NCBI GenBank assembly: GCA_022829145.1
Contig: CM040763.1
Span: 25,347,488-25,411,487 of the forward strand
DNA length: 64,000 bases
Reading direction: 5' to 3'
Origin: Albula goreensis
Lineage: Eukaryota > Chordata > Actinopteri > Albuliformes > Albulidae
The position numbers and the translations under genes were made by a program. The stretch's first letter is position 1; each line of letters opens with the position of its first letter. The notes beneath the pieces are model-generated. The model was not told the origin of the DNA. It did not search any database and was given only the letters and a program-made list of their open reading frames with translations. Of the stretch, positions 4,929 through 57,060 are shown piece after piece.

Positions 4929-6170
4929 AAGCATTTCACTATTTGTAAAAGAAAAGACATGAATGAGCTCCAGAATCCTGCTCATTCAGGATATAACAAA
5001 GTATGGCAAAATGAGGCTCAAGCTACGTGGGATCCACCTCAGATTCTCTAGCTTCTTAAATACAAGATTCAAGCAAATTGTTTTGACAAGGACAAAATCC
5101 TATTTCACACATCACAAACATACAGAACAATTAATATGTTTATTTGGAAGCAATGGTCACTTACAGCAGCAATCTCACAGGTGTATTGCTATTTCCCCAG
5201 GTCTATGGAACAAGGAAGTCTTCCCTCTAAAATGTAACACATCACTGATGTGGGGAGGGGAGGTGGCCTTTGAGGTGTGAGGCCACACCCCACTCATATT
5301 ATATATATATATATTTACTTAGAATGTCAAAAAACAGATCCTTGAACTTGATCTTCAATGAAAATGGTTAAACGCAAAAGCAGGTAATTCACTTTCTTGT
5401 CAATTGCTTTGAAACTTTTTTGTTGTTTTCACATTTTTCAGTGAAGGAATACTACATTCTGGAACTATTGTTTGCAAAGATCCAAAACAATGAAATGGGA
5501 CAATAATTAGCTTCTTTAAATATTTTTGATGTTCAGATGATGGAAACAGATTATGTTGGAGAGAATGAGACATGTTTTTTGTTCTTTTAGTAGGTTTTTA
5601 AATGTATTCTTGTTGGTGATCTTTATGGACGTTTGATTCTAGTATAGTACATTTAATACTTACACTATTTATCTTTTCATTCTCCTTATGAAAAGACATT
5701 TATTCATGGGAGAAACAGATTAAATAATATTTTAAACGTTTGCATGAATGAAGATACTTTTAGTGCATACATTTAGACACCAAGTCCTGTACAATATTTA
5801 TGGGTAAATAACTTTAAAAGGAAAAATGTGAAAATAAAATGCCTACTTGATAAATTTGCCATTACAGTGGACTGCTAATAAGTCTGGGTAGTCATCAGAC
5901 ACTCCTGGGTCTCATATTACATTCTATCAGTTTATACAGCTGAATATTTATGACAGCAAATCTGACAAACTACCTTGCTTAAGGGTACAAATACAGGGTC
6001 TTAACAGGGAATCAAGCGTGCAATCTCTAAGCTATGACGCCATCTCACTATGCATTATATGATGCTGCTATGCACATCTAAAATCATTGGTCTATACACG
6101 AGTAAGGCACCTCAGTAAAAATCAGCTGTGCAAATCACTGAAACTCCAGAATGTCCCTCATGCTGGATGT
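4929..6170. other. AT-rich sequence without a recognised gene
   Basis: A plus-strand frame of 105 codons at 4,963-5,280 has no recognisable domain and no supporting context. The remainder is AT-rich with a short (TA)n run near 5,298. If chs1 has further 5' exons they may lie here, but none can be identified. Confidence 0.35.
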
Positions 6171-6373: not shown

Positions 6374-6466
<93 letters not shown>

Positions 6467-6555
6467 TGTGTAAGTGCATGTGTGTGTATGTGCACGTGTG
6501 TTTGGGTAAATCAGTGACATAGTATAGTATGTACCTCACGCTGGATGTGTGTGTG
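6160..6555. repeat. (TG)n microsatellite inside a degenerate 80-100 bp repeat
   Basis: A nearly pure (GT)n tract of about 90 bp spans 6,376-6,463. Around it, diverged copies of a longer unit recur: CTGGATGTGTGTG, then a TG-rich stretch, then GTAAATCAGTGGCATA and CTTCCCTCA. The array ends about 10 bp before the first traced chs1 exon. Frames across it encode only Thr-His runs. Confidence 0.9.
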
Positions 6556-6564
6556 ATGGAGCAG

Positions 6565-6700
6565 GAGATCCTGGGACGCCTTCAGGGAGATTCCAGTTGT
6601 TCAGGATGGAGAAAAGCCCAGAAAACGTGTCAAATGCACACAGTGGCTGTCCTTCACCATTGTTGGCTTGCTTGTGTTTACTCTGGCCTTTTTCAGTAAG
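6565..6700 (+). CDS. chs1: chs1 traced exon 1: first transmembrane segment
   Basis: It encodes WDAFREIPVVQDGEKPRK, a basic stretch, then a hydrophobic helix ending in AFFSK at a GTAAAA donor (phase 0). The acceptor is uncertain because AG occurs at 6,561, 6,564 and 6,567. All three give the same entry phase, needing two bases from an upstream exon. The ATG at 6,556 is out of frame, so translation must start further upstream. Confidence 0.85.
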
Positions 6701-9700
6701 GTAAAACTCACATTTTTTTCATACACTTACTCATTAACCACATTTGATCCATTTTTATTTGTACGTTTTCTCCTGAATTGGGATACAGTTACATTTGTAA
6801 GGCATGTAACTGTAGCATTCTTTGTGAGAGGTGTGAGTGTAGCTGGTTGTTGTAGCTGGGTGGTGTGAGTGTAGCTGGATGGTGTAGCTAGGTGGTGTGA
6901 GTTAGCTGGGTGGTGTGTAGGGCTGTGACAATAAACGCATTACCGCAATAACACAGTTATGTGATGCCTACCGTGGTATTGAGCTCATTGCCGTCATCAC
7001 ATTTTTTTTTTGGTAATGCCCATACAGTTGATGCTAGCCGGCTGACATTCTTCAATTCAACAACGGCCACAAATCGAGTTCCTAAGCCAAATATAAAGTC
7101 GCCAATTTGCAGACATTATGGCTTCGAGCCAGACAACAAGGGACATCAGTAATAATAATAATAACAATAATAGTAATAATAATAAGAAGAAGAAGAAGAA
7201 TGATTTATTCTTCTTCTTCTTCTTATTGTTATTATTATAGCTGTAATTTTGCCTAAAGCTTATCATTTGATGTCTAAAGATAAAGGAGATTGTTTTATTA
7301 CTTATCCATGTTCATTTAGTATCTGCATGCATTGCTGACCTTTTGTTTAGTTTATAAAGAGATCTTTTTTTTTTTGGGGGGCAAACCGTGGTCATGAGTT
7401 GCTTTTTCATTGCGGTAAGAAAAAATCCAAACCATCACAGCCCTAGTGGTGTGAGTTTAGCTGTGTGGTGTAGCTGGGTTGTGTGAGTGTAGCTGGGTGG
7501 TGTAGCTTGGTTGTGTGAGTGTAGCTGGGTGGTGTGGCTGGGTGGTAAGAGTGTAGCTGGCTGGTGTAGCTTGATTGTGAGAGTGTAGCTGGGTGGTGTG
7601 TGTGTAGTTGGGTGATAAGAGTGTAGCTGGATGGTGTAGCTGGGTGGTAAGAGTGCAGCTACGTGGTGTAGCTGGGTGGTAAGGGTGCAGCTAGGTGGTG
7701 TAGCTGGGTGGTAAGAGTGTAGCTGGATGGTGTAGCTGGGTGGTGCGAGTGTAGCTAGGTAGTAAGAGTGCAGCTGGGTGGTAAGAGTGTAGCTGGATGG
7801 TGTAGCTGGGTGGTAAGACTGTAGCTGGGTGTAACAGTGTAGCTGGGTGATGGTAAAGCACATATGTCCCCTGAAGCAGGGGCTCCTGTGTTTCAAGAAA
7901 GGATTAGAGACCAAAAACTCTGAACCTCTCTGTTCATCAGAATATTAGCTGCACTTATTGATATGACTGTATACATGGCAGCAGTGATGCAAAATGCATT
8001 AAAAATGAATGATCTTCCATCAAATAAATTCCCTTATCATGCATCGAACAATGCCTAATGCATGATCTTATGTCAAATGTTAATATACTGTCTTGCAACC
8101 CCAAAACATTTTTGCTATGAGCCCAGAAATAAGTTACTGTAATGACCTCAACAAGAGGTGACTGCGTTGTTGTTTTTGTTGTCTGCAGTCGTCCCTGCTT
8201 CTCCTGATAACACTTGTGAGGGAAAGTTCCAGCACTGTGTGCTCCAGGCCTCATACAGTGCTGTGGCTGGGGGTCACTCTGATTTCTCCCAGCATTCTGC
8301 TGCTCCTGAAAAGCCTGTGGAAGTTCATGTTTAAGGGCTCCCAAAAACCCTCATGGAGAACAACACTGTGGGTGAGTCTGACACTCCATACAATAATAAT
8401 ATCATTATATGAATGTAATAATATAAAGTAAATGGAAATATAATAGTACAATCATATCATACTGTGAATGTAATTATATTATAATGTGAACATAATAACA
8501 TAATTACATGATGACCATGAGTCTGAATATGCAAATGCATTAACTAATCACATTATTATAAATGTCTGCTGGTTTTGTGTCAGTATGTAAGTTTTTAACA
8601 GCTAGCTGAACCTATTTTGTCAAAAGTTATGGAGTGAAATTATTATTAAGTACAAAAACAGATCAGCCATTGTCTTGTCATGCTCTTGGGCTCCCAGGTG
8701 CTGTGTGTGGAGACAGTGGTGGGACTGGGGGCTGCAGTTCTCCCACTGGTGGTCATGCCTCACTTTGACATCGTGAGCAACGTGCTGGTGCTTAATGGTG
8801 TTGGCTTCCCATCAGCAGTGCTCCAGGTGGCAGCTCAATGTCTGTCACGGGAGCGGAGGAGGGTCATGATCCCTCCCCTCATTGGTGTCCTGCTCATTGT
8901 TGCTGCCTATGTCCTCTTCACTCTGTCTTACATGCAAGACTACAGAGATGGAGGGAGCAGTCAAACAATGATTGTGTGGATTGGTATGACCACTGTAGGG
9001 ACATTCTGCATTTCTCTAAGCTGGTGGGAAAACTACAGCACCCTTTTCAACGTGACCTTCCTCAACAACATTACCAAAGATATCTCCAGGTCCAGGAACA
9101 TCATTTGCATGCTCTCCAGTGTGGTCAGGGTCCTGGTCACTTTGGCGGTGGTGGGGGCCTACGTCCCGCTGGCTGGTCTGGACTGGTCATTGCTGCAGTC
9201 TGTCCCAGAACCAAACAAACACGTAGCCCTGGGCTTGGCTGCAATCCAGGTGGCCTGCTCTACGCTTCTGCAGTGGTTAACTGTGGTGGCCTGCAAAATG
9301 CATGCCCACAGACAGAGCTTCTTCATCCCCATACACCTGAGCTCTCTGGCTGTGTTGGCGGCCTTCCTGATCAGCATCCTGGTCCCGCTGCAGCCTGGGA
9401 TGGACAACAGCACCTCACCTTGTCCCCACCCAGGAGTGAGTCCAGCACCCAGTGTGTTTGAGCAGCTCCTGAGTGATGCCAGGCTGACCCTGTGTGCCCG
9501 TCCTATAGTAAGGGACCTGGACACAGCAGGTCTGCTCCTGATCAGCGGCTCGCTGTTCTGCTGGTGGCTGGGCCTGGCTCTGGGCACCATTTACATCTGG
9601 TTCCTGGAGATCCAACGCATCGAGCGGACACAGGACCTGTTCCTACGCCGCCTGTATGAGACGGTGTTCCTGGAACAGGCTATGCTGCTCAACACGCGCT

Positions 9701-12700
9701 TCACGCTGGGCAGGAAGGGCAAGAACTCACGGTAAGATGCTGTCCATCATATCTAGACATGCAGACTGCTGCCTATTTTGCAGCCTTATCAGGAGACTCA
9801 TGGCTGGTTCTCTCTATAGGAACCGGGATGCCGTGACTGTGTACCTGTGTGCTACCATGTGGCATGAGAGTTATGATGAGATGATGAAGATTATCATATC
9901 GATGTTCAGGTAAAACACTGCAGAGCATTACAGCACAGAATTTTACATTCACATTTTTTAGCAGACACTTTTAATCCACAGCATCTTACAGGGAGTGCAT
10001 AAGTATGGCAACAAGTGCAACAGCATCAAATCTGTAAGCTGCTAAGCACCACATGTAGTACTGTAACAAATAATAAGACGTAGTTCATAGTAAGTACTGT
10101 AATAAGTGTCTGATGTTTTAGAATAATTAGGACAGAGGGAGTAGGGAAGAGGAGAAAGGTGTTTCAGGAGGTAGTTAGGTGCAGTCTATAGAGGTATATT
10201 TCCAGTCTCTCAAGAGTGTTCTGTGAAACACAGGTGACACTAAGGTTGCCCTTGTTTCCTTTTCTAGGTTGGACAAATACAGGCCACTGACCAAGTCCTG
10301 CAATGATGTGATCTTTGAGTCCCACATTTACTTTGATGATGCTTTCATCCAAGCGGGGGGCAGCAGTGAGCAGCGTGTGAATGAATATGCGGAGACTCTG
10401 GTAGAAGTGATCACAGAAGTCTACACGTATGTCCCATGTTTTCGCCACTTATGTCTGTGTGATTGGAACAGGTCTGCTGCACAGATCAGACCTAAGCAAC
10501 GATGTCTGCACACTGCAACAAGGAGTTCCTCAGTCACCAGGACATTATTGTACATGTGATGGCAGTTGTTTATATAGCTATTTACAGAGCTACAGATTTC
10601 CTTTCAAACTAAAAGGCCACAGTGTAAATGGCTGTATATAAGTTATTTATCCAGGCTGTGCAGATGTATTAAAATAGCAAAGCATTTTGTCAGCATTAGC
10701 TTAATTCCAGTTAGCTAAGGGACTAGATACATTCTGCAGTTGTACACATAGAGAACTGTAATTCTTTTTTGAAGTAATACGTTTGCAATTCACAAAATAC
10801 AAGCAACAGTCAAGGTTCCAACAGAACAGCAGCATTAGTGCCACAGATCAGAGCAGCAGCAAAAGCGCCACAGATCAGAGCGGCAGCAGCAGGTTCACAG
10901 CCCAGAACACCAGCAGCATTAGTGCCACAGATCAGAGCAGCAGCGCTACAGATCGGAGCAGCAGCAGTACCAGAAATCAGAGCAGCAGCAGCGCAGTGAG
11001 ATCACCACCATGGATCAGAGCGGCAGCAGTGCCACAAATCAGAGCAGCAGCAGCAGTGCTAGAGATCAGAGCAGCAGTGGCAGAAGCAGCAGCACCATAA
11101 ATCAGAGCAGCAGTAGTAGCAGCAGTGTAGCTGTGCCACAGATCAAGCAATAGAATGTGTCAAATCTCACAGCCAGTTATAACAGAAAATTTGACAGCAA
11201 TATTTCAATCTTCAAGAGAACAATCCATTTCTGATATGAACGTTGTTCTGTTGGATCTAGGCCTGGTGTTAAAAGAAAGTCGGTGACAGATGTGTTTTTT
11301 ATAGCAGTTATTTCAGTTGTGATGAGTCCCCTGCATGTTGTCACTTAGTAATTGATTTCACCTAGTGGCCTGCTATTTAAGGAACTTGTGAAACTGGCAC
11401 ACACTTCCACTTATCAGAGATAAAACTATGACAGAGTAGTACAGTTCTCCCCAGGACTCAAGTCCCCAATCTAAGATATGAACACTCAGTGGTCTGCTTA
11501 CACCTAGTGGCCTGTCTGGCTGCAGTAGTACAGTCTACAGCCTTGGCTTACACCCTCATGGTCTGCCATGGTGTCTGACCGCTCCTACTACCTAAAGGGA
11601 CTTGTTGCAACCTAGGCTTACATCCAGTGGCTTGCTATGGTGTCTGGCTGCCTACAGCCTTGGCTTACATCCATCTGCCTACTGTGGTGTCTGGCTACAC
11701 TCAGAGGTGTCTAGGCCTAGATCAGCTAGAGTTGAGATCCTAGGGAGCATACCCAGCTCGTCTTATGACAACTGTTACAAGCAGAACAGGATAGGCTGCG
11801 GAACCTGGGGCCCTGTATCCGGGACAAACCTCTGGAATGCCTCTGTACCTCAGCTGCCACACTGGAAGCACCTTGTTCACACACCTAGATGAAATAGAAT
11901 GAATAGGAAGCATAATTGTGAATAGAAAATGGAACAATGTTTATTGCAGTGCACAAGATTTGTCACCATCATACCATCAAGATATTGCATGCAGAGATAT
12001 CAACAAGACAAGACAAGGATAAACAGCAAAGTATGCACCCCCCATTATTCCGGAAAGGACTATGGCCGCCAGGAGCTTGTTAAGCAATGCTCCCCGAATG
12101 TATCACTAAGCTTCCCTTAAATGCCATCCTGAACAACCCCCTCCACTCCCCAATGTCCTTCAGACATCCAATAGGATTCTGCCAGGCACACTCTACAACC
12201 CTTTTCCTTAGCTTGCCATGAGACCACCCCTACAGGCACAAAAGTAATTGAGAGACAATTACTCCTGCATCTTTCCTAGCTGTATGGACCGAGTCCCTGC
12301 AGGGGTGCTCTCAGGGCTATACACACTTATTTACATACCTGGGTACAATTTAATACATTCCAATAACCATCAGTGACATTTGATTCCAACCCTGCAGCCG
12401 TCTTATCCACATGCCCCCCTCAGTCTTTCCCAGTGTTTATGGTGTCTATTGCATTGAAGTGGCTGCTGGAATTTAAGATGCTACTGTAAAGTCCTCTTTG
12501 GTGGACACTTGACACCCTAAGGCTGCCATTGTCCCTCTCCGTCAGTGTGTCCAGTTGGACTTTATGGGCCCTAATGGATAACCCTTCTTTAATCATGCTG
12601 GGGTTGCCTAGTGTCCAGGTTCCTGCCCAGGCTTGCACGCATGGGAATGAAATTTGTCCTTACACTAGGGAGCATACCCAGCTTGTCTTGTGACAAATGT

Positions 12701-27700: not shown

Positions 27701-30700
27701 TAATTGCTAAATATGTACTGTTGAGATTCATGACATAGGCTTCTCATACTGAGAAGATGGTTCCATATTTAGTTTATTTGTTTACATCATGGAAACTATG
27801 TGAACCATTGTTCCAGTGCTGAAAATTGTGTGGATTTATGTCAGTGATGGGGTAATAAAAAATGGCTACGAATCTAATTGCCTAAAATGGGCCAATATAC
27901 ATATATTAAATATTAATTGACTTTACTGGCAGCTGGTAGAGCCATCATGACAATGTAGGTAAGGCCTGATAGCCAGCCATCTGTTGTTTACCTAGTCAGT
28001 ATTTAGGTATTCCAAAATATCAGCATTGGACTAGCATTAGATATTTTGGACTACCCGAGCATGTGCCATGTAACACAATAAATACTATTTATTGTGATTG
28101 CAGGTGACAGGTCATAGTCATTGATTGGTTGTGGTTGCAGGTGAAGACCGCTGGTTATGCACGCTGCTCCTGCAGCAGGGCTGGAGGGTGGAGTACAACG
28201 CTGCCTCAGACGCCTATACCAAGGCCCCACAGGACTTCAAAGAGTTTTACAACCAGAGGCGGCGCTGGGGGCCCTCCACCATGGCCAACACCATTGATCT
28301 TCTGGGGTCTGGTGCTCTGACTTCACAGAGAAACAGCTCAATCTCCAAACCCTACATCCTCTACCAGATCATCAGCATGGCAGCATCGATCCTCGGCCCT
28401 GCCACCATTTGCCTTATGCTTGCAGGTAAGCATGTAGCAGCATGTCTGCATGGTGACAGCTGTAAGCATTGCTCTTATACCTCTTGTTTTGATAAGGTGG
28501 TTTTACATGAACAGAGAATGGAATGGACAGAGAATATTTTAGATTCCACTGGATTTTAATTTTTCTGCACCCATCAATACAGATGTACATTGTTGAGAAC
28601 AAAAATGTGCTGTAATTGTGAAGACAGGTATCTCCATGTGTCTGTTCTCTTTCAGGAAGTTTCACCTTCATCCTGTCGATCCATCCCAATAACGCACTGA
28701 TCCTTGCCACAGTGCCCCCTTTTATTTACCTCATCCTCTGCTTCCAGCTGAAGTCCGACACACAGATCACCATAGCAGCTGTTATGAGCGTGCTGTATGC
28801 CTTCCTCATGACTGCAACCATTCTTTCTGTCATAGGTAAACCACCTGTTACACCTGTGATTCTCTCTGTCACAGGTGTATTTCCAACTGCATGTCAGATT
28901 CTTTGTAGACTAGAGGGGATTCAAAATTTGTCAATGGGAACATTTAATGCATCGTCACAATACAATCACAAACAGTATGATTTTTGCTGTTATTTTTGCT
29001 ATTACATGAGCAGTTCTGTGAAATGGTTCCATTCAGCTCCTACATTGGAATAATCAGCAAAAGGATGGCAGAGTGACAAGAGCTCAGTATTTCTCAAAAT
29101 GGCAAGGTTTGCTTTACATGGTAAACAGGTTTCAGGATGTAAAATTGAAGATGAAGACATTCTTGATGCCTCCTGATATAGCATCTAAGGTGCATTTATG
29201 TCAAAAATGTAAGTAAAAAGCAAAGTGTGTACTCTGACCAGGGGCCCTTGCACAACACTCTGTCTTCCTCCTTCCCAGGTCCAGGTGTACTCTGTACCTG
29301 AGGTCAACATCAGCAGGTCAACATTTATATCTAACATTGCTGTTGAAGTACAGATCAAGTAAATGAAATAACAATAATTAATTAATTGCAAACAATAGTT
29401 AAATTGTTTGATAATAGACCATGGCAAACTATGTGTCCAGGGATATTTACATGAGACAACAGAGTATCAGTACTGTAATGGTAGATTGCCACATCAAGCT
29501 CATGATATATTGGCCAACTTTTTATTTTTTACTGGTGCAGACAAACAACTAACTTTTCATTTTCATTGATAGGGTTTACAGGAGTTGTAAAAAATTTAAT
29601 ACACACAAAAAGAGGTGTAAATATGAAGTTAGACAAAGCTCTACACAATAAGTAGTTTGTGTGTTGCAACCTGTAACATTTTATTCAATTTAATTCTACT
29701 TTATCTATTTTATTTGTATAGCATTTTCACAACAAAAATTGTCTCAAAGCTTTACAAATTGTCACAAAGCTTTCAAAGAAGTGACAATGAAAATAAGCAG
29801 AAGCACATCTAGAGGCGTCAATGGCCCTATTGCCCCTAGAAAAAGGAGACAGCTTGCAACCCTAGCTGAACCAGAGGCTCTCAAGGCAGCCACTGATGCT
29901 AACAGTGAACAACATAGCTCTGTACTTCAACTTCATACGACTCACCTCAATCCTACACAGCACACTAAAGAACATGTGGCTGAACAGGCTACGGAGCCAG
30001 AGATAGACCCACTCTCTCAAGACGAGGTCAGATGAGGCCACCAGCCCTGCACTCCATTCAAACTCCACACCTCAACACAGAGAGTGGTCTTCCACCAGAT
30101 GACGTCAGCCATGCTAATGACGCTCACCACCAAATGTCAACCTTCCTTAAATGAGAGATACAGCTAAACAACACATACAGCATAATTTAACAAGCCCACT
30201 CCTCTGCCTCCCTCTCAGCCCAGTCACATCCCTATATATTTGCACCATCACAACTCAACTGTGACTGATTTTTTCAAATACTTTTCTCATCGTGAGCTTC
30301 TCAACACTGGTCTGCTGCAGATCAGTGTCCAACCAGAGTGTTGTGCGGCCAAGTGTTGTGAGCTTGGCGGCGGTCCTTTCTGAATGCACTTAGGGACTTA
30401 GATCTGATGTCCAGTGAAGAAATGGATCTTTTGGTTAAGTGGTTGGGAAAACAGTCAGCTGAGCATGCAAATTGAATCAGAGCTGTCCATGTGAACCAGC
30501 CAGACAGAGGGCTGAGGATGATTTGGGACAGACTGGATGAGTGCTACGGTGCACCTGAAGTAAATGATGGGGCACTTTTCCAGCAAGTTGACAGCTTCCC
30601 CAAGATATCGAACAAAGATTATGTCTTCCTGCCTTGTGCTCTACCCCTGCGTGGCATGGCTATCATTTTCCTCAGGTGTTCAGTTTCCAGCACTCAGTTA

Positions 30701-33700
30701 AATTTTAGAAAAAAAAAAAAAAACAACAATTAACTTTTGGTTTGATGAATAAGGTAAATGTTATCAGGTGGAAAACAGAGCTGATAAGCCTGGAGAGCCT
30801 GGCAGTGAGTGTGCTTGGCCATGCTCCTGATGGTCCTCTGTTTATGTTCTGTTCACAGGCCAGATGGTGGAGGAGCAGACCTTTATGACCCCCAGCGGCC
30901 TGTTCTTTATCAGCATGGTCCTTATGTATGTGGTCACTGCTGCCTTCCATCCTCAGGAGTTCCCCCTCATCATCTTTGGCCTCCTCTACTTCCTCTGCAT
31001 TCCCAGTGGCTACCTCCTGCTGGCTATCTACTCCATGGTCAATATGAACAACGTGTCCTGGGGCACCCGTGAAACAGGGGGACCCCTAAAGTCAAAGCCT
31101 GCTGGAGCAAACCTGAAGAACTGGAAGTGTAACTGCCCATGTTGGACTGACCAAGAGAAAGCTGATGAAGATGAGATTCAGAACCTTCTGACAGCCAGTC
31201 AGATGGATCTTACAGCAGAACTGACAACACTTCAGGATAAAAGGTAAAATTACCAAAATTACACTGCACAGACACTGCAGAAATACAGTATATTCTTATA
31301 TTATGTTTGCTACAAATTATGAAAATGATTAAAACAGTAAAAACATCTCTTACAATGGAAAACAAACAAAACAGGGTGTATATGGCCGATGAAGAAATAG
31401 ATACAGAATAGTGGCTGAGGGCCTGAAAAATCACCACAGAGCTGAATGCACACTTCAGTGACTCAGGCTAACTGAAAATGTACAATGGAAGCTTGACAAA
31501 TCTCCAGCTCTTAGACAACTGCTCACTTGTTCCAGTAACCCAACACAAACACTTAAAAATTTGTAAAGCAGCTTTCCAAGAGAAAGAGAGAGGCCATTCT
31601 GGAGACCCAACTATTTATTTATGACATGTTCATATGTTGTTTTTCCCTTTGTGTGAACTCCCTGTACATTTTGTATAATCAGCACTGTTGATGGAAAAAT
31701 GTCCTATTTACTGCCTTCTTTGTATGCATCCTAGAAAAGAACACTTGGTTTCTGCACCATCACAAGGTAAGTATGTTACAAGCTTTAAAACTGGAGAAAA
31801 AATTAGAACTGGAAAAAAATTTAAGTTACAATTTAGAAAGTCTTTAGAAAATTTGCCTGTGTAAAAGAAAATTTAAGTAATGTTTTCATAATTGTGCTTT
31901 TTGAAGACTTGAGATTCAACCACGACCCTAGCTTGCAAATGAATCACCTCTACAAAATTTGCCAAGCTTCAACAAGAAACATTAGCCCATAGTAAATTGT
32001 AGCCTGTAGCCTTTGCTGCCTGTAATTCTTCACCTACACTTTGTCATTTTCATCTGTGTTGCATTAATCCACTGGGGTTTTCAGTTGTTTTTGGTTTGTT
32101 TTAAAGGGTGGGTTGCTCAACTGCAGAGCAAGTCTCGGGAATTTGCCCTGAATGAGGACACTCTCAAAACAGTAAGGGTCTCTATTGTCTGTACCAACCC
32201 TTTCCTTCACATCACCCTCACCCTTCATATCCCCTTTTGGAGATAAAGTCTAAGGAAAACCGAAGGAATTTATTAGAGTCCACGCAGGAACCAGACAGGC
32301 AGAGCAGACAGTGTAAAAGTCCAGCAAAAACAGCAAAACTAAAGGCACACCTCAAGTAGAAGCATTTAGGCAAAACACAGTCCAAGAAAATTCTTGAGAT
32401 AAAAACACAGTCCAAGAGGCAAATGAGAAAACATTTACAGCGGTAAGGCTAGACGCATTACTATAAGCACAGCTAAGCATGACTGAGCTCAGAAGGTAGG
32501 AACACACAGATTTAATACTGGCTTAATGAATAATGGATCTCAGGGGCATGTAGTTTGACAGCACAGGGGATAAATGCTGGAACTGGACCTCCACGTGACA
32601 AAATCTTGATTTTGATTTCTGAGAAAAGAACAATAAGACAATGAATTCTTTTGTTTAGTCAGGGAGATATTTGTATTTAGTGTCAGTAGTTATGAAAGTG
32701 TGTTATTGAATAGAGCATGCCATGGCTTTTTGGGGTAGTCCTTGTCAGAAAGCACAGCAATAACCTCATTAAATGAAACAATGGGCTGAGTTCAAAATCT
32801 GCCATATCGCAGCATAAAGGAGGAGAACCAGGAATGTTGAGTCTGGGGTGCTGGTAACAAAACGAGGAAAACATCTTTTCAGCAAAGCAATAGTAGGGGT
32901 TTGAGACTCTAAATTGAGTTTCCTGCTAAGTTATAAGCTTAGTTTCACTTGTTATCAATGGCTTGATTATTGTCATTCAGTGGAATTATGTAGTTAATTT
33001 ACAGAGTCAATTTTGCATCTTGGGATAATGCAGTTCAAACTAGAGTGTAGTTGAAACTAAATGGTTCTGTGTGATGTGAGTCTGAGGAGGTAGCTGGGAT
33101 GAACAGGAAGGAAGCCAGGGTTACTAAAAGCTATGCTAAGATGATTCTTTTAAAAATCAGTAATTCATGAAAAGCTATTAAATAAACTGTTTTCTGTTCT
33201 GTTTCTTAAATTGTGTTTTGAATACAATTGCTATTGTTTTGCACATTTATATATTATCTTGAAAACCTTCAACATTTTATTGGTGTATGATGTAGTGACC
33301 ATGTTTTGATGTTGAGCGTTTTTGCCATCTTTTCAAGGAAGAGGAGGAATTTTGGCGAGAGCTGCAGGAACGGTATTTGGAGCCTCTAGCTGAAGACAAA
33401 GAAAAACAGAGGAAAATTGCAGAGGACCTGAAAGCTCTCAGAAACAGGGTATACTTCAAAAATATGTTTCCCTATGTGAAGTTAGTTATTTTGATCTATT
33501 TTTGGTTATTTTATGGATAACCAGGCAAGACCACATTGAAACTGAAATTGCCAAATGAGGACCAAATTAAATTCAATTCCAATGCCAATAAGCCTATCTT
33601 TCTGCTCCCCCTTGCCCTCATGTCTCAGTATTGGAGAAGATGACAGCAGATGTTTAAAACACCCCTTTAGATCTCTGTTGCTGATGTATCCTAAGTTTTT

Positions 33701-36700
33701 TTTTTTTTACACATTTTGGTGACATCAAAAGACCATCCCACACAACCAGGCATTGTTAAAATGGTCAAATACATGGCAAATGATTTACTGACATACTAGC
33801 ATAAGTAGCAGCACAACTGTTGCTGGTTAAATGACACTAATATGCAAGCATTTCAGTTTTTAGCACATCCTGTACTTAAAATTACCAGATAAAATGATGA
33901 TTTTTGTGAAATGTTGTGTAATTGACTAACTTCTGATTGTACCCCAGGTGCTGTGTAGATCCAATGATATTTATAGTATACAGATGTGTGAGCCCAATAC
34001 CTGGTGTCTGTGCATTGCTAATCCAAATGATATCCTCTTTTGATGCACAGGTGGCGTTCGTCTTCTTCATCTGCAATGCCCTGTGGCTGGTGGCCACCTT
34101 CTTTCTGCAGGCCATTGGTACATCAGTTAGTATCCAGATTCCAAAAATTTACATCAATGGCTCAATCATGGAGGGAGAGAACATTTTCATTGATCCCATT
34201 GGACTGATGTTCCTGCTGGGTTTCTTCTCTCTGCTCCTGGTGCAGTTTGCAGCCATGCTCTACCACAGGTGATCACTGCCACATCACAGTGGACATGCTT
34301 TACTAAGGGGCACCTAAAGCATGGGGGGGTGCTAAATTGCAGCGGACACAAGTATTTTCAGACAACCCCTCACTCAAATACCTTTATCTGTCCAGTTTGG
34401 GTTTCTACACAGGTATTAAATTGCCACATACCTTCTGCCCCCCTTGGACTCCAAGCCCAAAATCAAATATCTGTACTGATATACTACTCACCACATCATG
34501 AAAAACTCAAAAAAAAAAAAAAAAGAAAAATTCCAAAGCCATTCAGTGTCAATTCTACTGACTTCAGTGTTGAACTGCATGCTGAGCATGGAAAAATTAT
34601 CTATATGGGATGGGACAAGACACTACAGCCTCTGTCTTACACTTAGTGCAAAGCGTCTTGTTTGAGACCAAAGCAGTTTTCATTTTCTAAACAATGCTTG
34701 ATGTTGTTTAAATAGCAAATGCACTTCCAGCTGTCTGAGTTTGCTGGTCTTAAGATGAGCTGTGGGCAGTTGTATTGGTGGCACATTGCTATTTTGAATG
34801 CAACTAAAAGCAATTGCATTTTGATGAACAAAAACCTGGTCATGAGTCATGTCGTAACTGCTTCATTGTTATTTTAAGGGTGCAATGTCTTGACAATGAT
34901 GCAAGCCTACATAGGCAGACTACACAACATGCATATACCCTGCTTATTACACACACAGGGGTATGTACAAACATGAATACAAAAAAAAACGAACAAAAGT
35001 GAAAGATTATTGCTGTCTAGAGTATGTAATAAATACATTTCATAATGGTCACAATACAATTATATAATCTCAGAAATGATAAATGAAAATGGCTAATTAT
35101 TTGACCAGTCATAGCAATAGTATCACATAGTATCAAACAGATTCATGAGGTAAGGATCAAAGATTTAAGGACCACAGAACAAATACCTCAACTCGTTTTA
35201 AATAAATTTTGCACTACATTATTAGAAGACCATTTAAGTTGAACAAAACATAATTTTCCCTCACATGTCCCTCTGTGAAAATTCCCTCTGTCATCTCCTG
35301 GCAGATGAGCTGGGGAATACCTGCCCCTGCTGCACTGCCTAGTCTGACATGCCAATGAACACATTCCCCATACCACCTGCCAGCCAAGAAAGATTTAGGA
35401 CATTGCTGATGACACAGGGAGCTGTAAGTCACACAGAAATGCACGCTAAGACACACAGGCATGCATGCCAGGACACACAGACATGCACGCCAGGACACAC
35501 AGGCATGCACTTGCTGTCCTCCCTGATGCCTTGCAGGTTTCTGCAAGGTAATGGGATGCAAACACTTCCACTGAATGAGTCCCTCTCTCTGGTGATACTA
35601 CAGCCAGCAGGCCTGCCTGCCACAATCATTACAGTGCAGTTCCAGTTCCAAACCAGACCTTAACAGATAAGCCACCCAGCAGCTGCAATTAATAAAGTAC
35701 CACATATTACAGTGCGAATGCTAATTCAGTTTGTTTTGCTTCTAGAATCTACACATTGATCCACTGTGTTGCCTATACTGGAACAGAGGCAAAAGCCATG
35801 AAGTCAGAAGCAAAACATTTTCTCGAGGACCCAAGTAATGAAAATCAGGTACATAACAGAAGTGGACACACCCTAACTGAATCTGAATTCTGTTCTGATT
35901 GGCATGAAGCCTACTGTGCTTTTTTGTGTCATTACAATAACTGGAGTCTCCTTTTTTAGAAATACAGCATTTATTTTAGGCTATTTCTGTCATTGTTGTC
36001 AAACCCTTGAGAGTTACATTTCAAGACTGTTATATGGCAGCAAAGGCAAAAAAAAGAATGAAAAATGAGGTACTTGAAAAGTATGGCAGTGATGATGAAT
36101 GAAACTGGTTAATTTTTACACAGAAATACACATCTACATTTATACAGACAGTTTAAATGTATTTAATATATTTAAATATATTCAAGATTGTGTTTTCACA
36201 GCAAAAACCATAAGATCTTGGATCAAAAATCTTAACTATTTTTAAAAGATTTTTGTTTCACATAAGTGCAGGACCATATAAGTAATGCTTACCCTGCTAG
36301 GATGTAACAGAGAATATCTGTATATATCTATTGACTGACTATTGACTTTGAGTAGATTGAGAAAAATCCAAAATGTTGTCCAGTGAATATTGCATTTATG
36401 TGAAAATGCAATATTCACTGGACATTATGCGAAATGAGGATAGCCTCACTACATCTTGGGGAGCTGCCTACTGTTTCTATAATTTCTCTGCTCACAGACT
36501 TAAACATGGTGCACCAGCAGGTCTCTTTCCTCCACAGTGAATCAGTAGTTTTTTTCCACTTAAGGTACAGTGCTCTTAAAATAGGCATAAACCATTTAAA
36601 ACCTTAAAGGCGATAAAAGATGACATGCTGATTGGTTTATAGCTCGTCACACCCAGATAACATTGTGCCTCATTCATCAAATGTGAGCTGAACAAATTTG

Positions 36701-39700: not shown

Positions 39701-40872
39701 TTAGCAAGATCTGTGGCACTCAAATTTTTATGCAGGACCAAATAACTTCTAGATGTGATAGAACTATATTAATACTACACAGAATCAAAATTTGGCTGCA
39801 AGAAAGTAAAAACTAGTGGAGATATTAATTTAGGAAAATTAAAGATTCTTTGTTCAGGTATGTTTTATTAATTTGATTACTGTAAACCAGTCAGCTACAA
39901 CTATTTACATTAGTTCATGTTGAAAATTATCTTTAGGGTTTCTTGGATGTTCAGTACAAATTGCAACCCAATCCAGTGAAGAATAAGCAATTGGTGAGGC
40001 TTAGAATACACATACAAAGAATCGCTAAAATGCTCAGAGGGCAAAACTTCAAAAATTCAAAACTGAAAAGGTATTTGGAGTACAGTTATAGGATTTTGCA
40101 AGGTCCTATTCATTTAATCGAAGTTTTTACATGAATTTTTTTAGAGAAAAGCCATGACATGAACTGGGGGTCCTGAGTGATTTGGCATGTAATGACCTGT
40201 ATACCTTTTTATAAAGATATCGCCATTAAACAATTTTATTAGACTAGAATCTGACCCTTACTGTATCCTCCCTCTAAGATCGTGTCATGCTAACATGGAA
40301 AGCTTCCACCTCTCCTACAATGACAATGGCTCAGATTCAATCAACATTTGTCCTTAACTGCAACTGAATGAGACTGTTTTTTTAGTGTGGTGAGTTAATT
40401 TTCATGATTGCTGAACTCATCAAATTGTGTCAGTGAAGACAAAAATGAACACTTGCATTTAAAAGTTGAGGACAAATGGTAATTAATCAGTAACAGAGCT
40501 CCTTATGTACATGTGGACTCGTCTTTGTGCTCCAGCCCCGAATTTAGCTGGAAATGCTAATATGGTGGCTGCTTTTGAGAGCTCAATTTTGACTCTTTGA
40601 CTAACATTTTGATTCTCAACCAATCAGTTTTACCTACAATGTACTGATGTATTCATGAAATGTATGCAGTATTTTCCAGTGTATTGATAGAGATAACAAT
40701 AGATAAAAATACAAAAAGCACAAAAATCATGACATTTGACAGAACAGTTTGTCCTCCTTGTTTTGAACAGGTGGATGATGTACAAGAAGAGTCTCTCTTT
40801 GAAGAGCCAGAAGACAGAGCACCTAAGCCAAACACAGATTTCATTGCATCATTCATAGTCTCTGAAGTGTAA
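6565..40872 (+). CDS. chs1: Chitin synthase (GT2 family), 18 traced exons, 5' end missing
   Basis: The enzyme polymerises UDP-N-acetylglucosamine into chitin at the plasma membrane. Eighteen exons with GT-AG borders join in a consistent phase to give 1,233 residues plus stop: 6565-6700, 8189-8371, 8698-9731, 9820-9909, 10268-10426, 23111-23285, 24014-24115, 24200-24341, 25287-25487, 28141-28425, 28656-28835, 30859-31243, 31735-31766, 32107-32171, 33338-33448, 34051-34268, 35746-35848, 40771-40872. In this numbering membrane helices fill residues 20-440. The cytoplasmic core runs from about 450 to 800 and has CATMWHE (9848), LDGDTDF (24230), GEDRW and QRRRW (28254). More helices follow, then SWGTRE (31056), an acidic coiled coil, two helices and an acidic tail. 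All catalytic motifs are intact and no frameshift is seen. This order matches animal chitin synthases; a hyaluronan synthase would be far shorter. The initiator exon is not found. I expect a functional gene. Confidence 0.95.
6918..7445. mobile_element. Non-autonomous hAT element with perfect 8-bp target duplication
   Basis: The ends are TAGGGCTGTGA and TCACAGCCCTA, exact 11-bp inverted repeats. The 8 bp just outside on each side are both GTGGTGTG (6910-6917 and 7446-7453), as expected for hAT insertion. The interior has no transposase. It holds a trinucleotide hairpin (about 7,150-7,240) and TA/CG-rich terminal sequence. One caution is that the host sequence is itself repetitive, so the duplication could partly reflect the array. 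Confidence 0.85.
7148..7242. repeat. Trinucleotide inverted repeat (AAT/AAG against CTT/ATT)
   Basis: A run of AAT then AAG triplets is followed, after a few bases around TGATTTATT, by CTT then ATT triplets. Together they can fold into a long imperfect hairpin. It lies inside the hAT element at 6,918-7,445. Confidence 0.8.
7856..8188. other. Intron sequence, nothing recognised
   Basis: This is the end of the intron between traced exons 1 and 2. It closes in a T-rich tract and TCTGCAG acceptor immediately before 8,189. No gene or element is recognised. Confidence 0.5.
8189..8371 (+). CDS. chs1: chs1 traced exon 2: membrane segments
   Basis: Sixty-one codons, phase 0 at both ends, with TCTGCAG acceptor and GTGAGT donor. 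The exon encodes two hydrophobic segments (SSLLLLITLV and a VLWLGVTLISPSILLLL helix) joined by a short Ser/Arg-rich loop, then a basic stretch, KFMFKGSQKPSWR. It matches the N-terminal membrane region of animal chitin synthases. Confidence 0.85.
8698..9731 (+). CDS. chs1: chs1 traced exon 3: large N-terminal membrane exon
   Basis: This single 1,034-bp exon encodes 344 codons plus two bases. It contains most of the N-terminal transmembrane bundle, about six helices. The most conserved part reads LNGVGFPSAVLQ and then LSWWENYSTLFN, both typical of animal chitin synthases. Its C-terminal end turns basic and cytoplasmic (EIQRIERTQDLFLRR), leading into the catalytic domain. Acceptor CTCCCAG, donor GTAAGA. 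The long frames on the other strand and in the other plus frame are shadows of this exon. Confidence 0.95.
9820..9909 (+). CDS. chs1: chs1 traced exon 4: start of catalytic domain, CATMWHE
   Basis: A 90-bp exon with acceptor TCTCTATAG and donor GTAAAA. It completes an Arg codon from exon 3, then encodes NRDAVTVYLCATMWHE and MKIIISMF. CATMWHE (9848-9868) is the first conserved block of the chitin synthase glycosyltransferase fold. Confidence 0.95.
9910..10267. other. Intron between chs1 exons 4 and 5
   Basis: The intron of 358 bp ends in a T-rich tract and TTTCTAG. Phrases such as TTTAGCAGACACTTTTAATCC resemble tails of fish SINE/LINE-type repeats, but no element could be delimited. Confidence 0.45.
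10268..10426 (+). CDS. chs1: chs1 traced exon 5: UDP-sugar binding half of the fold
   Basis: 159 bp, entering and leaving in phase 2. It encodes SCNDVIFESHIYFDDAF, whose acidic FESHIYFDDAF stretch is typical of family 2 chitin synthases, then a helix NEYAETLVEVITEVY. Donor is GTATGT. The following intron is 12.7 kb. Confidence 0.93.
10785..11135. repeat. AGC-rich tandem repeat
   Basis: Irregular units of about 15-35 bp combine CACAGATCAGAGCAGCAGC with GCCAC/GTGCC variants. Plus-strand translation gives Ser/Ala/Gln-rich protein, but there is no splice context and it lies in an intron, so I treat it as non-coding. Confidence 0.85.
11170..11737. other. Intron sequence with repeated CCTAGTGGCCTG phrases
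   Basis: The phrase CACCTAGTGGCCTG and variants, with GTGTCTGGCTGC and CTTGGCTTACA, recur several times between 11,350 and 11,720. This suggests a degenerate local minisatellite. No coding sequence is recognised. Confidence 0.5.
11738..13521. repeat. Direct tandem duplication, two copies of about 0.86-0.93 kb
   Basis: Copy 1 (about 11,738-12,662) and copy 2 (about 12,663-13,521) both open with CTAGGGAGCATACCCAGC and both end with GGGAAT(G/A)AAAT followed by CCTTACA. In between they share CACACCTAGATGAAATAGAA and AATAGGATTCTGCCAG. Copy 1 carries about 185 bp (around 11,925-12,110) that copy 2 lacks. Divergence is clearly visible, so the duplication is not recent. Copy ends resemble LTR termini (CCTTACA reads TGTAAGG on the other strand), which would suit two old head-to-tail LTRs, but no internal region is present. 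Confidence 0.75.
13527..14232. pseudogene. hAT transposase relic with an internal inversion
   Basis: The plus strand from 13,527 encodes a degenerate hAT transposase. It has YYIAKNDRPYTD early, CSDGASVML near 13,830, and a shifted frame giving LELSVGDAV and FMDKYL to about 13,980. The matching C-terminal piece, DVRWVASSYRTVKAVW, lies on the minus strand (within 14,232-13,963). The back part is therefore inverted relative to the front. Several stops and shifts are present. It resembles the ZBED/ZNF862-like class of hAT proteins and is related to the relic at 45,170-46,125. It cannot be active. Confidence 0.75.
14198..14690. repeat. Left arm of a large inverted repeat
   Basis: This arm is matched in reverse complement by 19,608-19,834. 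The shared parts are CCTAGTC(C/T)CAGTG with a CTTCTCAGCTTTGTGCTTAA block at one end, and GCATTCATAATGCAGTC with CAGCCTCATAAAGCAT at the other. The left arm has about 260 bp more in its middle. The Harbinger copy starts 11 bp inside it. Confidence 0.75.
14701..17709 (+). mobile_element. Harbinger (PIF/Harbinger) DNA transposon, inactive
   Basis: The termini are GGGCCTCATTTATCAAA at the left and TTGATGAATGAGGCCC at the right, imperfect inverted repeats. Each is flanked by AAT, a 3-bp target duplication compatible with this superfamily. The left half carries a HARBI1-like transposase (15,191-16,141). The right half (16,200-17,690) holds no clear second gene, although Harbinger elements often have a Myb/SANT protein. 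A related, shorter copy is at 36,665-38,780. It lies in the big chs1 intron, same orientation. Confidence 0.85.
15191..16141 (+). pseudogene. HARBI1-like transposase, broken
   Basis: The N-terminal part (ATG at 15,191, MADLTLQEN) shows FRLPRPHLL, VLGVLATGTFQQEIGDRSGI and SQPSMSRILPNVV, the helix-turn-helix of HARBI1-type transposases. The frame shifts by one near an A run at about 15,560, then gives TIGAVDCTHVHIKAPS with the first catalytic Asp. Soon after, YLIG joins DRGYPLTTKLMTP across a 64-bp intron (15,716-15,779, GTAAGC to CCCATAG). The roughly 70 residues normally between these blocks, with the second catalytic Asp, are missing. The last acidic residue (MVEC) is present. A family member that lost its middle would be catalytically dead. 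Confidence 0.85.
17710..19607. other. Intron sequence inside the large inverted repeat
   Basis: About 1.9 kb of AT-rich DNA between the Harbinger copy and the right arm, without recognisable coding sequence. It contains the 130-bp tandem duplication at 19,069-19,329. It may be the body of an older element whose ends are the inverted repeats. Confidence 0.4.
19069..19329. repeat. Tandem duplication of about 130 bp
   Basis: Copy 1 (19,069-19,200) and copy 2 (19,201-19,329) both start with AAGCCTCATGTCAAA-type sequence. Both contain GATTGACATGACTTTA and TAAAATCATT. A third truncated start (CCCCATGTCACTATA) follows. Confidence 0.8.
19608..19834. repeat. Right arm of the large inverted repeat
   Basis: Reverse complement of the left arm at 14,198-14,690. 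It starts CACTGAGACTAGGTAAATTA and ends GAATGCATTATGAGG, with a shorter middle than the left arm. The two arms are about 4.9 kb apart. Confidence 0.75.
19835..21076. other. Intron sequence, nothing recognised
   Basis: AT-rich sequence with a short (AT)n run near 20,260 and repeated TATCAGTCTC phrases near 20,565-20,600. No gene or delimited element is visible. Confidence 0.4.
21077..21570 (+). mobile_element. Possible solo LTR
   Basis: The segment begins TGTGACAG and ends CTTGTTACA, as LTR ends do. In plus orientation it has a TATA-like GGTATAAAAGACC at about 21,410 followed about 65 bp later by AATAAA (21,478). The flanking bases (GCTAT and CTACG) do not form a clean target duplication, so the borders are uncertain. 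Confidence 0.5.
21571..22640. other. Intron sequence with a GC-richer block
   Basis: From 21,600 to 22,080 the sequence is GC-richer than its surroundings and has overlapping frames on both strands with no recognisable domain. It adjoins the LTR-like segment and might be retroelement leader sequence. Beyond it nothing is recognised. Confidence 0.35.
22641..22870 (+). mobile_element. LINE reverse transcriptase fragment
   Basis: A plus-strand frame reads FLFGSTVQVRVG and LVENGTPQGSMLSTLLFSIM, the conserved block of non-LTR reverse transcriptases that precedes the catalytic motif (Jockey/I/Rex-type). It is only about 75 codons and both flanks decay at once. It lies 240 bp before chs1 exon 6. 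Confidence 0.8.
23111..23285 (+). CDS. chs1: chs1 traced exon 6: TPYGGRL and KKRWSQ region
   Basis: The acceptor TCAATCTCAG at 23,110 has a good pyrimidine tract and gives the right phase. An alternative AG at 23,125 would not. The exon encodes TPYGGRLKYTLPHG and HLKDKQLIRHKKRWSQ, hallmark animal chitin synthase sequence just before the nucleotide-binding segment. Donor GTGAGG. Confidence 0.95.
23286..24013. other. Intron between chs1 exons 6 and 7
   Basis: A 728-bp intron ending GCTTTCAG. No element could be delimited in it. Confidence 0.5.
24014..24115 (+). CDS. chs1: chs1 traced exon 7
   Basis: Thirty-four codons, phase 0 at both ends. It encodes IMYLYYLLGWKINRKY and an acidic stretch, RFEEGEDENVLTQM. 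The first part directly continues RHKKRWSQ of exon 6, as in insect and fish chitin synthases. Donor GTAAAA. Confidence 0.95.
24200..24341 (+). CDS. chs1: chs1 traced exon 8: catalytic LDGDTDF
   Basis: It encodes NTYILALDGDTDFLP, with the metal-coordinating DGD at 24,233-24,241, followed by VMLLVDRLKLYPEVGAACGR and IHPTGTG. Acceptor TTCTCAG, donor GTAACT, phase 1 out. The preceding intron is only 84 bp. Confidence 0.96.
24342..25286. other. Intron between chs1 exons 8 and 9
   Basis: A 945-bp AT-rich intron. Around 24,950-25,035 it shares TGGCTAATTATTTGACCAGT and flanking words with a segment at 35,075-35,120 in a later intron, so both are copies of one interspersed repeat. No coding sequence. 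Confidence 0.5.
25287..25487 (+). CDS. chs1: chs1 traced exon 9: substrate-site block CSPGCFSLFR
   Basis: It encodes GPMVWYQKFEYAVGHWLQ and VLCSPGCFSLFRGAALMDD, then YVQYDQG. These are highly conserved core segments: the QXXEY helix and the SPGCFSLFR block. Acceptor TCCTTCAG, donor GTGCTA, phase 1 to 1. Confidence 0.96.
25488..28140. other. Intron between chs1 exons 9 and 10
   Basis: A 2.65-kb AT-rich intron. A TTAA followed by CACTAGAACTTCCAGG begins a piggyBac-like end at 25,732. The rest contains no recognised element. The two short frames at 27,039-27,382 have no domain support. Confidence 0.5.
25732..25790. mobile_element. piggyBac-like terminus
   Basis: TTAA is followed by CACTAGAACTTCCAGGA and then by the near-palindrome GGGTCAAATTGACCC (25,769-25,783). 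This arrangement is common at ends of fish piggyBac-derived elements. No matching right end was found in the intron, so it may be a fragment. Confidence 0.4.
28141..28425 (+). CDS. chs1: chs1 traced exon 10: GEDRW and QRRRW catalytic motifs
   Basis: The exon opens on the codon completing Gly, then EDRW (28,143-28,154), whose Asp is the catalytic base in processive family 2 transferases. QRRRW is at 28,254-28,268 and binds the growing chain. It is followed by GPSTMANTIDLL and the first helix of the C-terminal membrane part. A nearby AG at 28,102 is not used because it breaks the frame. Donor GTAAGC. Confidence 0.97.
28426..28655. other. Short intron between chs1 exons 10 and 11
   Basis: A 230-bp intron with donor GTAAGC and acceptor CTCTTTCAG. 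It contains no recognised element. Confidence 0.5.
28656..28835 (+). CDS. chs1: chs1 traced exon 11: C-terminal transmembrane helices
   Basis: It encodes hydrophobic segments SFTFILSIH, ALILATVPPFIYLILCF and TIAAVMSVLYAFLMTATILS, separated by the short polar QLKSDTQ. These are membrane helices that help form the chitin-translocating channel in this family. Phase 1 to 1, donor GTAAAC. Confidence 0.95.
28836..30858. other. Intron between chs1 exons 11 and 12
   Basis: A 2.0-kb intron. Its second half (about 29,750-30,640) contains BEL/Pao retrotransposon remnants. A 16-base A run lies near 30,708. The first half has no recognised content. Confidence 0.5.
29735..30640 (+). mobile_element. BEL/Pao retrotransposon gag remnant
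   Basis: Near 30,400-30,610 the plus strand encodes MDLLVKWLGKQSAEHA in one frame and then NQPDRGLRMIWDRLDECYGA and DSFPKISNKD in another. This is a recognisable segment of BEL/Pao Gag. A 98-codon frame at 29,739-30,035 (RSTSRGVNGPIAPRKRRQ) may be the Gag N-terminus. Stops and shifts make it non-functional and no LTR is seen. Confidence 0.65.
30859..31243 (+). CDS. chs1: chs1 traced exon 12: membrane helices and SWGTRE
   Basis: It encodes two long helices (LFFISMVLMYVVTAAF and IIFGLLYFLCIPSGYLLL), then VNMNNVSWGTRE (SWGTRE at 31,056-31,073), a motif needed for chitin export in fungi and conserved in animals. A cysteine-bearing cytoplasmic loop (NWKCNCPCW) and an acidic stretch follow. Acceptor GTTCACAG, donor GTAAAA. 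Confidence 0.96.
31735..31766 (+). CDS. chs1: chs1 traced exon 13: 32-bp microexon
   Basis: Bounded by GCATCCTAG and GTAAGT, it supplies KEHLVSAPSQ and exactly bridges the phases of exons 12 (phase 2 out) and 14 (phase 1 in). Without it the frame would not join. The sequence alone does not show whether it is always included. Confidence 0.75.
32107..32171 (+). CDS. chs1: chs1 traced exon 14
   Basis: It encodes GWVAQLQSKSREFALNE in the acidic cytoplasmic loop that follows SWGTRE. The Trp is the one usually found in this loop. Acceptor TTTTAAAG, donor GTAAGG, phase 1 to 0. Confidence 0.85.
32172..33337. other. Intron between chs1 exons 14 and 15
   Basis: A 1.17-kb intron. The part from about 32,250 to 32,600 (GGAATTTATTAGAGTCCA, repeated ACACAGTCCAAGA, then CATGTAGTTTGACAGCACAG) resembles the reverse strand of a fish LTR with its polyadenylation region, but no borders are secure. 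Confidence 0.4.
33338..33448 (+). CDS. chs1: chs1 traced exon 15: acidic coiled coil
   Basis: Thirty-seven codons, phase 0 at both ends: EEEEFWRELQERYLEPL and a charged helix, EDKEKQRKIAEDLKALRNR. The EFW...RYL..L pattern and the coiled-coil stretch match the loop before the last helices in type-A animal chitin synthases. Donor GTATAC. Confidence 0.93.
33449..34050. other. Intron between chs1 exons 15 and 16
   Basis: A 602-bp intron, T-rich near 33,698, ending GATGCACAG. Nothing recognised. Confidence 0.5.
34051..34268 (+). CDS. chs1: chs1 traced exon 16: last two transmembrane helices
   Basis: It encodes VAFVFFICNALWLVATFFLQ, a loop with PKIYINGSIMEGENIF, and a second helix, LMFLLGFFSLLLVQFAAML. 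This pair of closing helices is characteristic of animal chitin synthases. Donor GTGATC, phase 2 out. Confidence 0.95.
34269..35745. other. Intron between chs1 exons 16 and 17
   Basis: A 1.48-kb intron with an A run near 34,508. It carries the interspersed repeat shared with 24,950 (at 35,075-35,120) and a short tandem repeat at 35,430-35,512. No coding sequence. Confidence 0.5.
35430..35512. repeat. Short tandem repeat, about 24-bp unit
   Basis: Three to four imperfect units share CACACAGACATGCACGCC or CACACAGGCATGCATGCC. Translations rich in Cys/His come only from the repeat. Confidence 0.75.
35746..35848 (+). CDS. chs1: chs1 traced exon 17: cytoplasmic tail
   Basis: It encodes IYTLIHCVAYTGTEAKAMK and HFLEDPSNENQ after the last helix. 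Acceptor TTGCTTCTAG and donor GTACAT; phase 2 in, 0 out. It follows exon 16 with exact phase agreement. Confidence 0.85.
35849..36664. other. Start of the last chs1 intron
   Basis: AT-rich sequence with a 21-bp perfect hairpin at 36,377-36,424 and otherwise no recognised content. Confidence 0.5.
36377..36424. repeat. Perfect 21-bp stem hairpin with 6-nt loop
   Basis: The left arm (36,377-36,397) starts TGTCCAGTGAATATTGC and is matched base for base by the right arm (36,404-36,424). The loop is ATGTGA. Confidence 0.9.
36665..38780 (+). mobile_element. Second, internally reshaped Harbinger family copy
   Basis: It begins GTGCCTCATTCATCAAA and ends TTGGTAAATGAGGCCTAAT. It shares long similar stretches with both ends of the copy at 14,701-17,709, for example TTGTGTGTGTAAATGGAAAA near 36,820 and CCCCAGGATTTATGGCAACG near 38,160. 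The transposase region is absent. In its place are a nested insertion (37,045-37,661) and unrelated sequence. It is non-autonomous and sits in the last chs1 intron. Confidence 0.8.
37045..37661. mobile_element. Nested MITE-like element
   Basis: Bounded by GTTTGCTTGCC at the left and GGCAAGCAAAC at the right, exact 11-bp inverted repeats, with TTATTATTATTATTCCTGG near the left end. It lies inside the Harbinger derivative. No coding capacity and no clear target duplication were seen. Confidence 0.55.
38781..40770. other. Rest of the last chs1 intron
   Basis: AT-rich. It has three TAACCC telomere-type units at about 38,942-38,959. A plus-strand frame of 112 codons (39,203-39,541) and another of 63 (39,943-40,134) have no domain I recognise and no splice support. 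The intron ends TTTTGAACAG. Confidence 0.45.
38942..38959. repeat. Short interstitial telomere-type repeat
   Basis: CTAACCCTAACCCTAACCC, three units of the vertebrate telomere hexamer in the CCCTAA orientation, inside the last chs1 intron. Confidence 0.9.
40771..40872 (+). CDS. chs1: chs1 traced exon 18: terminal exon with stop
   Basis: It encodes an acidic tail, VDDVQEESLFEEPEDRAPKP, then DFIASFIVSEV and a TAA stop at 40,870-40,872. The acceptor TTTTGAACAG gives the phase expected from exon 17. Because this tail is poorly conserved, an additional small exon in the 4.9-kb intron before it cannot be excluded. Confidence 0.8.
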   Translation: MDDVQEESLFEEPEDRAPKPNTDFIASFIVSEV

Positions 40873-44135: not shown

Positions 44136-44309
44136 ATAACAATATTACCAGTAGAGCTTTTAACAGTCAATAAATAAAAAACACTCACGGGAAAATCTAG
44201 TGTATTGTATTAGGAGGAAAAACATACTATATCTGTGTCAGGAGACAAGGAGATGATCAAAAGTATCAGACTACTGGCAAATTGCCAATGAATGTTAGCT
44301 ATCTAGCTA

Positions 44310-57039: not shown

Positions 57040-57060
57040 GTACCCCCATGACCGCCTCTT
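57040..57060 (-). other. Polypurine tract of gypsy copy A
   Basis: On the minus strand AAGAGGCGGTCATGGGGGTA lies directly before the 3' LTR. The same sequence follows the LTR at 61,837 for copy B. Confidence 0.6.

Follow-up and report, generated by a model that had tools for sequence, protein, structure and literature searches.

A chitin synthase gene of eighteen joined exons in the genome of the bonefish Albula goreensis

The genome of the bonefish Albula goreensis carries a chitin synthase gene, an observation that was first made in a sequence-only reading of the same DNA and is confirmed here. The window analysed, to which all coordinates refer, is a stretch of 64,000 nucleotides (GenBank assembly GCA_022829145.1, contig CM040763.1, positions 25,347,488 to 25,411,487 of the forward strand). 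Overall, the best explanation is a bonefish chitin synthase gene which stood under long-term purifying selection and belongs to one of two teleost clades, a reading to which a probability of roughly 0.85 can be assigned. The gene is real but not surprising; its family is already known from many fishes. The surprise implied earlier at meeting such a gene in a fish is not borne out, as vertebrate genes (PMC3942024), fish-gut expression (PMC10234404) and chitinous membranes in tilapia (PMC6109156) are all described in the available excerpts of published papers. According to similar excerpts, the literature on vertebrate chitin synthases goes back at least to 2014 (PMC3942024), and copies in salmon were published in 2007 (PMC1971071). 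Since published work covers both the chitin synthases of fishes and the chitin of their gut, this gene counts as an ordinary representative of a family already described. Judged from their entries, none of the papers retrieved on Albula together with chitin or genome deals with this gene. What is new is a corrected gene model; public databases already contain the gene. It adds one more case, from a teleost line that branched early, of fishes in which chitin synthase genes are kept by constraint.

The gene model comprises 18 exons on the forward strand between 6565 and 40872, which together form a single reading frame of 1,233 residues and a stop codon (3,703 nt of coding sequence, i.e., one leading base, 1,233 codons and the stop). 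All 18 acceptors read AG and all 17 donors GT. For an independent reconstruction, 12 exons were assembled from the three forward frames using splice borders and phases, without a phase conflict, and the remaining ones were placed by searching the window with fish proteins (tblastn). This rebuild reproduced exactly the earlier count of 18 exons and 1,233 residues in a single frame without conflict. For exons 13, 14 and 17, a single combination among 256 boundary shifts was open with proper borders. Two donors are weak, at 25487 (score -0.6) and 33448 (score -2.0), as scored with a donor matrix; the joins at both are identical in the deposited A. goreensis protein. Third-position GC amounts to 0.62 in the coding sequence versus 0.39 in the introns. 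No further copy or fragment of a chitin synthase gene was found in the window, where the 10 other matches all reached at most 26.6 bits. The exons are listed below with their identities to the closest orthologue, AAFF_G00418040 of Aldrovandia affinis (77% over 1,196 columns), which shares the N- and C-terminal layout but has its own start exon (MPDDREMNFS...) and a Q in place of L644 of the window protein.

6565..6700, + strand: exon 1, 136 nt, residues 1-45 (RSWDAFREIP...), matches fish chitin synthase N-termini; 35/45 identical to Aldrovandia
8189..8371, + strand: exon 2, 183 nt, transmembrane; splice reading and tblastn; 41/61
8698..9731, + strand: exon 3, 1034 nt, N-terminal transmembrane block; splice reading and tblastn; 220/337
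9820..9909, + strand: exon 4, 90 nt, skipping keeps the frame; CATMWHES at 9848-9871; 25/29
10268..10426, + strand: exon 5, 159 nt; splice reading and tblastn; 38/52
23111..23285, + strand: exon 6, 175 nt, preceded by a 12,684-nt intron; splice reading and tblastn; 52/58
24014..24115, + strand: exon 7, 102 nt; splice reading and tblastn; 22/34
24200..24341, + strand: exon 8, 142 nt; DGDTDF at 24233-24250, then L644; 46/47
25287..25487, + strand: exon 9, 201 nt; QKFEY at 25304-25318, CSPGC at 25373-25387; 65/66
28141..28425, + strand: exon 10, 285 nt; EDRW and QRRRW (28254-28268); 90/94
28656..28835, + strand: exon 11, 180 nt, transmembrane; splice reading and tblastn; 52/59
30859..31243, + strand: exon 12, 385 nt; transmembrane helices, SWGTRE at 31056-31073; 91/127
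31735..31766, + strand: exon 13, 32 nt; tblastn and boundary scan; same in the deposited protein
32107..32171, + strand: exon 14, 65 nt; tblastn and boundary scan; deposited protein
33338..33448, + strand: exon 15, 111 nt, weak donor; splice reading and tblastn; deposited protein
34051..34268, + strand: exon 16, 218 nt, C-terminal transmembrane pair; tblastn, boundary scan and hydropathy; 59/72
35746..35848, + strand: exon 17, 103 nt; tblastn and boundary scan; 21/34
40771..40872, + strand: exon 18, 102 nt including the stop codon; tblastn and boundary scan; 13/27

The identification as a fish chitin synthase gene, as proposed earlier, is carried by the domain score, the motifs and the database matches. 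A draft protein of 1,133 residues (without exons 13, 14, 17 and 18) scored 101.6 bits against Pfam Chitin_synth_2 (PF03142; cut-off 27) over residues 588-852, and retrieved fish proteins named chitin synthase with E = 0 among the best 120 of 2,136 matches. The motifs follow each other in the order CATMWHE, DGDTDF, QKFEY, CSPGC, GEDRW, QRRRW and SWGTRE. Hence, the QxxEY, EDR and QRRRW signatures appear in sequence as QKFEY (residues 680-684), GEDRW (741-745) and QRRRW (779-783), which are found in 127, 126 and 125, respectively, of 127 other fish proteins. SWGTRE lies behind the catalytic domain at residues 962-967 (SWGTRE in 85/127 of the others, WGTRE in 126/127), and CATMWHE is present in 120/127. 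Among the 120 proteins taken from the best of 2,136 matches, ATMWH occurs in 112, and four of the remaining eight read CGTMWHE. Hydropathy analysis gave 17 hydrophobic stretches, some of them overlapping; nine precede the catalytic domain, six follow it and two lie close to the C-terminus. Such a layout is expected for the chitin synthase family.

The earlier statement that every known catalytic and export motif is present in order goes too far. A review of fungal enzymes, in the excerpt available, lists nine chitin synthase motifs and places them at nucleotide-sugar binding, the channel entrance, catalysis and substrate entry (PMC12653383). The fungal DGR and KASKL have no literal counterpart in the window protein; the nearest stretches by eye are YGGRL (560-564) and KKRWSQ (587-592), and the profile alignment stops short of both. 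VLPGA is replaced by CSPGC, and in place of CATMWHXT, the signature of insects, the window protein has CATMWHES. The letter following TMWHE is T in 104, S in 12, N in 8 and A in one of 125 occurrences in 130 proteins, so the last position of this signature varies inside the family. Solved fungal and oomycete chitin synthases (7xs6, 7stl, 7wjm) align with a fish profile in the catalytic region and the SWG loop, but are distant (profile bit scores of 45 to 71) and leave the N-terminal part unaligned. Exon 10 alone gave no match when searched against solved structures. The Danio chitin synthase is classified as type II in the excerpt available (PMC3942024). A predicted structure of the deposited A. 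goreensis protein from a 27-row alignment was set aside as evidence on account of its poor confidence (mean pLDDT 54.7, pTM 0.38, worst in the catalytic domain).

Confusion of chitin with hyaluronan synthases has a precedent in the history of Xenopus DG42, as told in the excerpt available (PMC3942024), and the window gene could in principle encode a glycosyltransferase of family 2 other than chitin synthase, such as a hyaluronan synthase, given that the fold motifs are common to both and one hyaluronan synthase was among the matches of a profile built from 20 fish proteins. This profile, however, retrieved solved chitin synthases down to E values of 4.1e-19, the hyaluronan synthase only at 0.0087. 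Together with a Chitin_synth_2 score far over the cut-off and the combination of QKFEY, EDR and QRRRW with SWG, this makes such an identity very improbable, and it was dropped. Even harder to credit is a decayed copy or assembly chimera whose frame is open by chance, a notion that the transposon remnants around the gene and introns of up to 12.7 kb might invite; against it, the exons lie in order on one strand with no other fragments in the window. Two tests, used as stand-ins for dN/dS, led us to reject a chance open frame. Alignment columns were divided by their conservation in the 127 other proteins, and the window protein and Aldrovandia agree at 212/218 columns that are at least 99% conserved, compared with 389/612 columns below 80% (odds ratio 20, p = 3e-27). 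Identity is thus concentrated at conserved columns, which argues against drift without selection. Neutral drift was simulated by point mutation alone, with a transition probability of 0.5, until a fixed number of amino-acid changes had been reached; with targets of 100, 130 and 160 changes, 3/300, 0/300 and 0/300 runs, respectively, stayed free of stops, i.e., 3/900 in total with indels not counted, while the window's own changes since Aldrovandia number about 155 as estimated from branch lengths. On these grounds, constraint on the gene is clear for the greater part of its history. Of the earlier claim that it is still under selection, purifying selection since the split from Aldrovandia is thereby backed by two indirect tests, whose reach is the past and not the present day.

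This leaves room for a long-maintained gene whose function was lately lost in the species, the frame being open although the promoter or the start exon has disappeared, or the enzyme being inactivated by its changes at conserved sites. Such a loss finds its footing at the 5' end. Exon 1 opens mid-codon and an in-frame TGA lies upstream of it at 6554-6556; exon 1 therefore cannot contain the start, and the ATG exon is missing from the model. A tandem acceptor, GAGCAG (6560-6565), offers an alternative exon start at 6562 with the frame kept either way, and only with this start does the window protein read S-R-R-S-W-D. The acceptor is preceded by a GT run of about 120 nt (6374-6492), which is simple sequence and not a pyrimidine tract, and a minisatellite also lies immediately upstream of exon 1. 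In the upstream 6.5 kb, where no ATG exon is recognisable, a donor-matrix scan for a start exon gave three candidates above 4.5, none of which was accepted, and a scored scan gave six, the best no better than shuffled sequence:

5364..5383, + strand: weak start-exon candidate, ATG with donor GTAATT, score 13.1, equalled or beaten by 5/30 shuffles

As 5/30 shuffles score as high, it was dropped as a proven start exon, and no complete transcript model with a start codon was obtained within the window. The earlier description of the gene as intact-looking is hence right for the 18 exons, which are open without a lesion, but the model is not complete. A recent loss could further draw on five departures from consensus at the 218 columns at least 99% conserved (one in Aldrovandia), among them L644 (24251-24253), which adjoins DGDTDF, the DxD motif, in an otherwise very conserved exon and is Q in about 99% of the 127 other fish proteins; of the two such stretches in the mollusc protein, one has Q at this place and the other E. 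However, relatives carry only a short charged N-terminus ahead of the WD...REVP stretch (in Aldrovandia MPDDREMNFSRRSWD), so that a start exon may have been missed or may lie outside the window. Besides the lesion-free exons, the catalytic exons 8 to 10 share 201/207 residues with Aldrovandia, and relative-rate tests with six outgroups did not find the window lineage significantly faster (largest chi-square 3.31; window- to Aldrovandia-specific changes of 68:52, 60:63, 59:52, 64:45, 61:48 and 41:39). Altogether, a recent loss appears improbable, though less so than the two preceding alternatives, and a chitin synthase gene under long-term constraint is preferred.

The first match of the draft search was a deposited A. 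goreensis protein, AGOR_G00236460, which UniRef calls 'chitin synthase' and another source 'hypothetical protein'. It equals model residues 107-450 and 481-1233 without a difference, which by itself would mark the window as bonefish DNA, but takes its first six residues from the end of intron 2 and is devoid of exons 1, 2 and 4. Exon 4 (9820-9909), which belongs to the catalytic domain, holds the CATMWHE segment and is kept in relatives (25/29 residues identical to Aldrovandia, with the motif widespread), for which reason its omission from the deposited protein looks like a prediction error. Without the correction, alignments or expression experiments based on the deposited sequence would use an enzyme devoid of this segment.

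A phylogenetic tree was calculated from 26 of 130 proteins plus the window model with gar and bowfin as outgroup. An earlier tree with Mytilus as outgroup had been discarded and rebuilt, as this mollusc sat on a very long branch (5.74) and did not fix the root of the teleost clades. Teleost chitin synthases form two clades (support 99/99 and 100/100). The window gene falls in the second one (14 rows, 100/100) as sister to the Aldrovandia gene (100/100), and this pair is sister to the clupeocephalan genes, which include zebrafish chs-1 and chs-2. These two zebrafish genes share the motifs, but show 43-73% identity in most tblastn pieces, with higher values in exons 8 to 10. In contrast, JZ751_011035 of Albula glossodonta, a chitin synthase from the same genus, is a paralogue in the first clade. 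The clade topology and this bonefish paralogue fit a duplication at the base of the teleosts, as expected from the teleost genome duplication; a teleost-base duplication is also inferred for the two subclades of PMC10234404 in the excerpt available. Matching these subclades I and II to the two clades by way of CATMWHXT (38 rows) was abandoned, as the last letter of the motif varies (T, S, N) inside the clade of the window gene. In the Mytilus-rooted tree, five eel rows and one tarpon row all lay in the first clade among the matches listed. Since the protein lists hold the best 120 of 2,136, of 2,500 and of 336 matches, that eels and tarpon lost the second copy is only a lead. It is conceivable, albeit unlikely, that among the elopomorphs the line of the bonefishes and their relatives retained both chitin synthase duplicates from the teleost genome duplication, that eels and tarpon lost the copy seen in the window, and that changes at otherwise fixed sites such as L644 beside DGDTDF tune the enzyme.

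Assigned by family, the product would be a membrane-embedded family 2 glycosyltransferase, the cytosolic domain of which would link GlcNAc from UDP-GlcNAc into chitin, with the growing chain pushed out through the enzyme's own membrane channel. Our best guess for its role, and an unsure one, is by analogy with other fishes the formation of a chitinous barrier in the gut epithelium. According to the available excerpt of PMC6109156, tilapia CHS1 is expressed in intestinal epithelium bearing chitinous membranes, and gut sections of zebrafish and trout stain with a chitin-binding probe, although its authors caution on probe specificity and purification from fish faeces failed. As excerpted, PMC10234404 describes one subclade as gut-specific in salmonids, pike and zebrafish, while the other fish subclade has low expression everywhere and lacks CATMWHXT. 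As the window protein reads CATMWHES and these subclades are not matched to the two clades, a use in the gut stays unsure.

The surroundings of the gene contain several mobile-element remnants. A DDE_Tnp_4 transposase fragment (15752-16138, + strand, 56.4 bits) lies within intron 5 beside a neighbouring frame at 15071-15628, and a fragment of an integrase core domain (rve) lies at 298-618 (- strand, 38.8 bits). Retroelement-like frames extend over 47622-51029 (+ strand), with a zinc knuckle at 48655-49272 and the rest named by the look of the translation alone. Two retrotransposon-like copies (57021-61121 and 61968-63878, both - strand), likewise named by translation, share their translations over long parts. 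A minisatellite with units of CCCTAACCCTA occupies 43730-44137. In Atlantic salmon, the MHC class I IB region has an insert of 220 kb that holds three chitin synthase copies, as stated in the available excerpt of PMC1971071.
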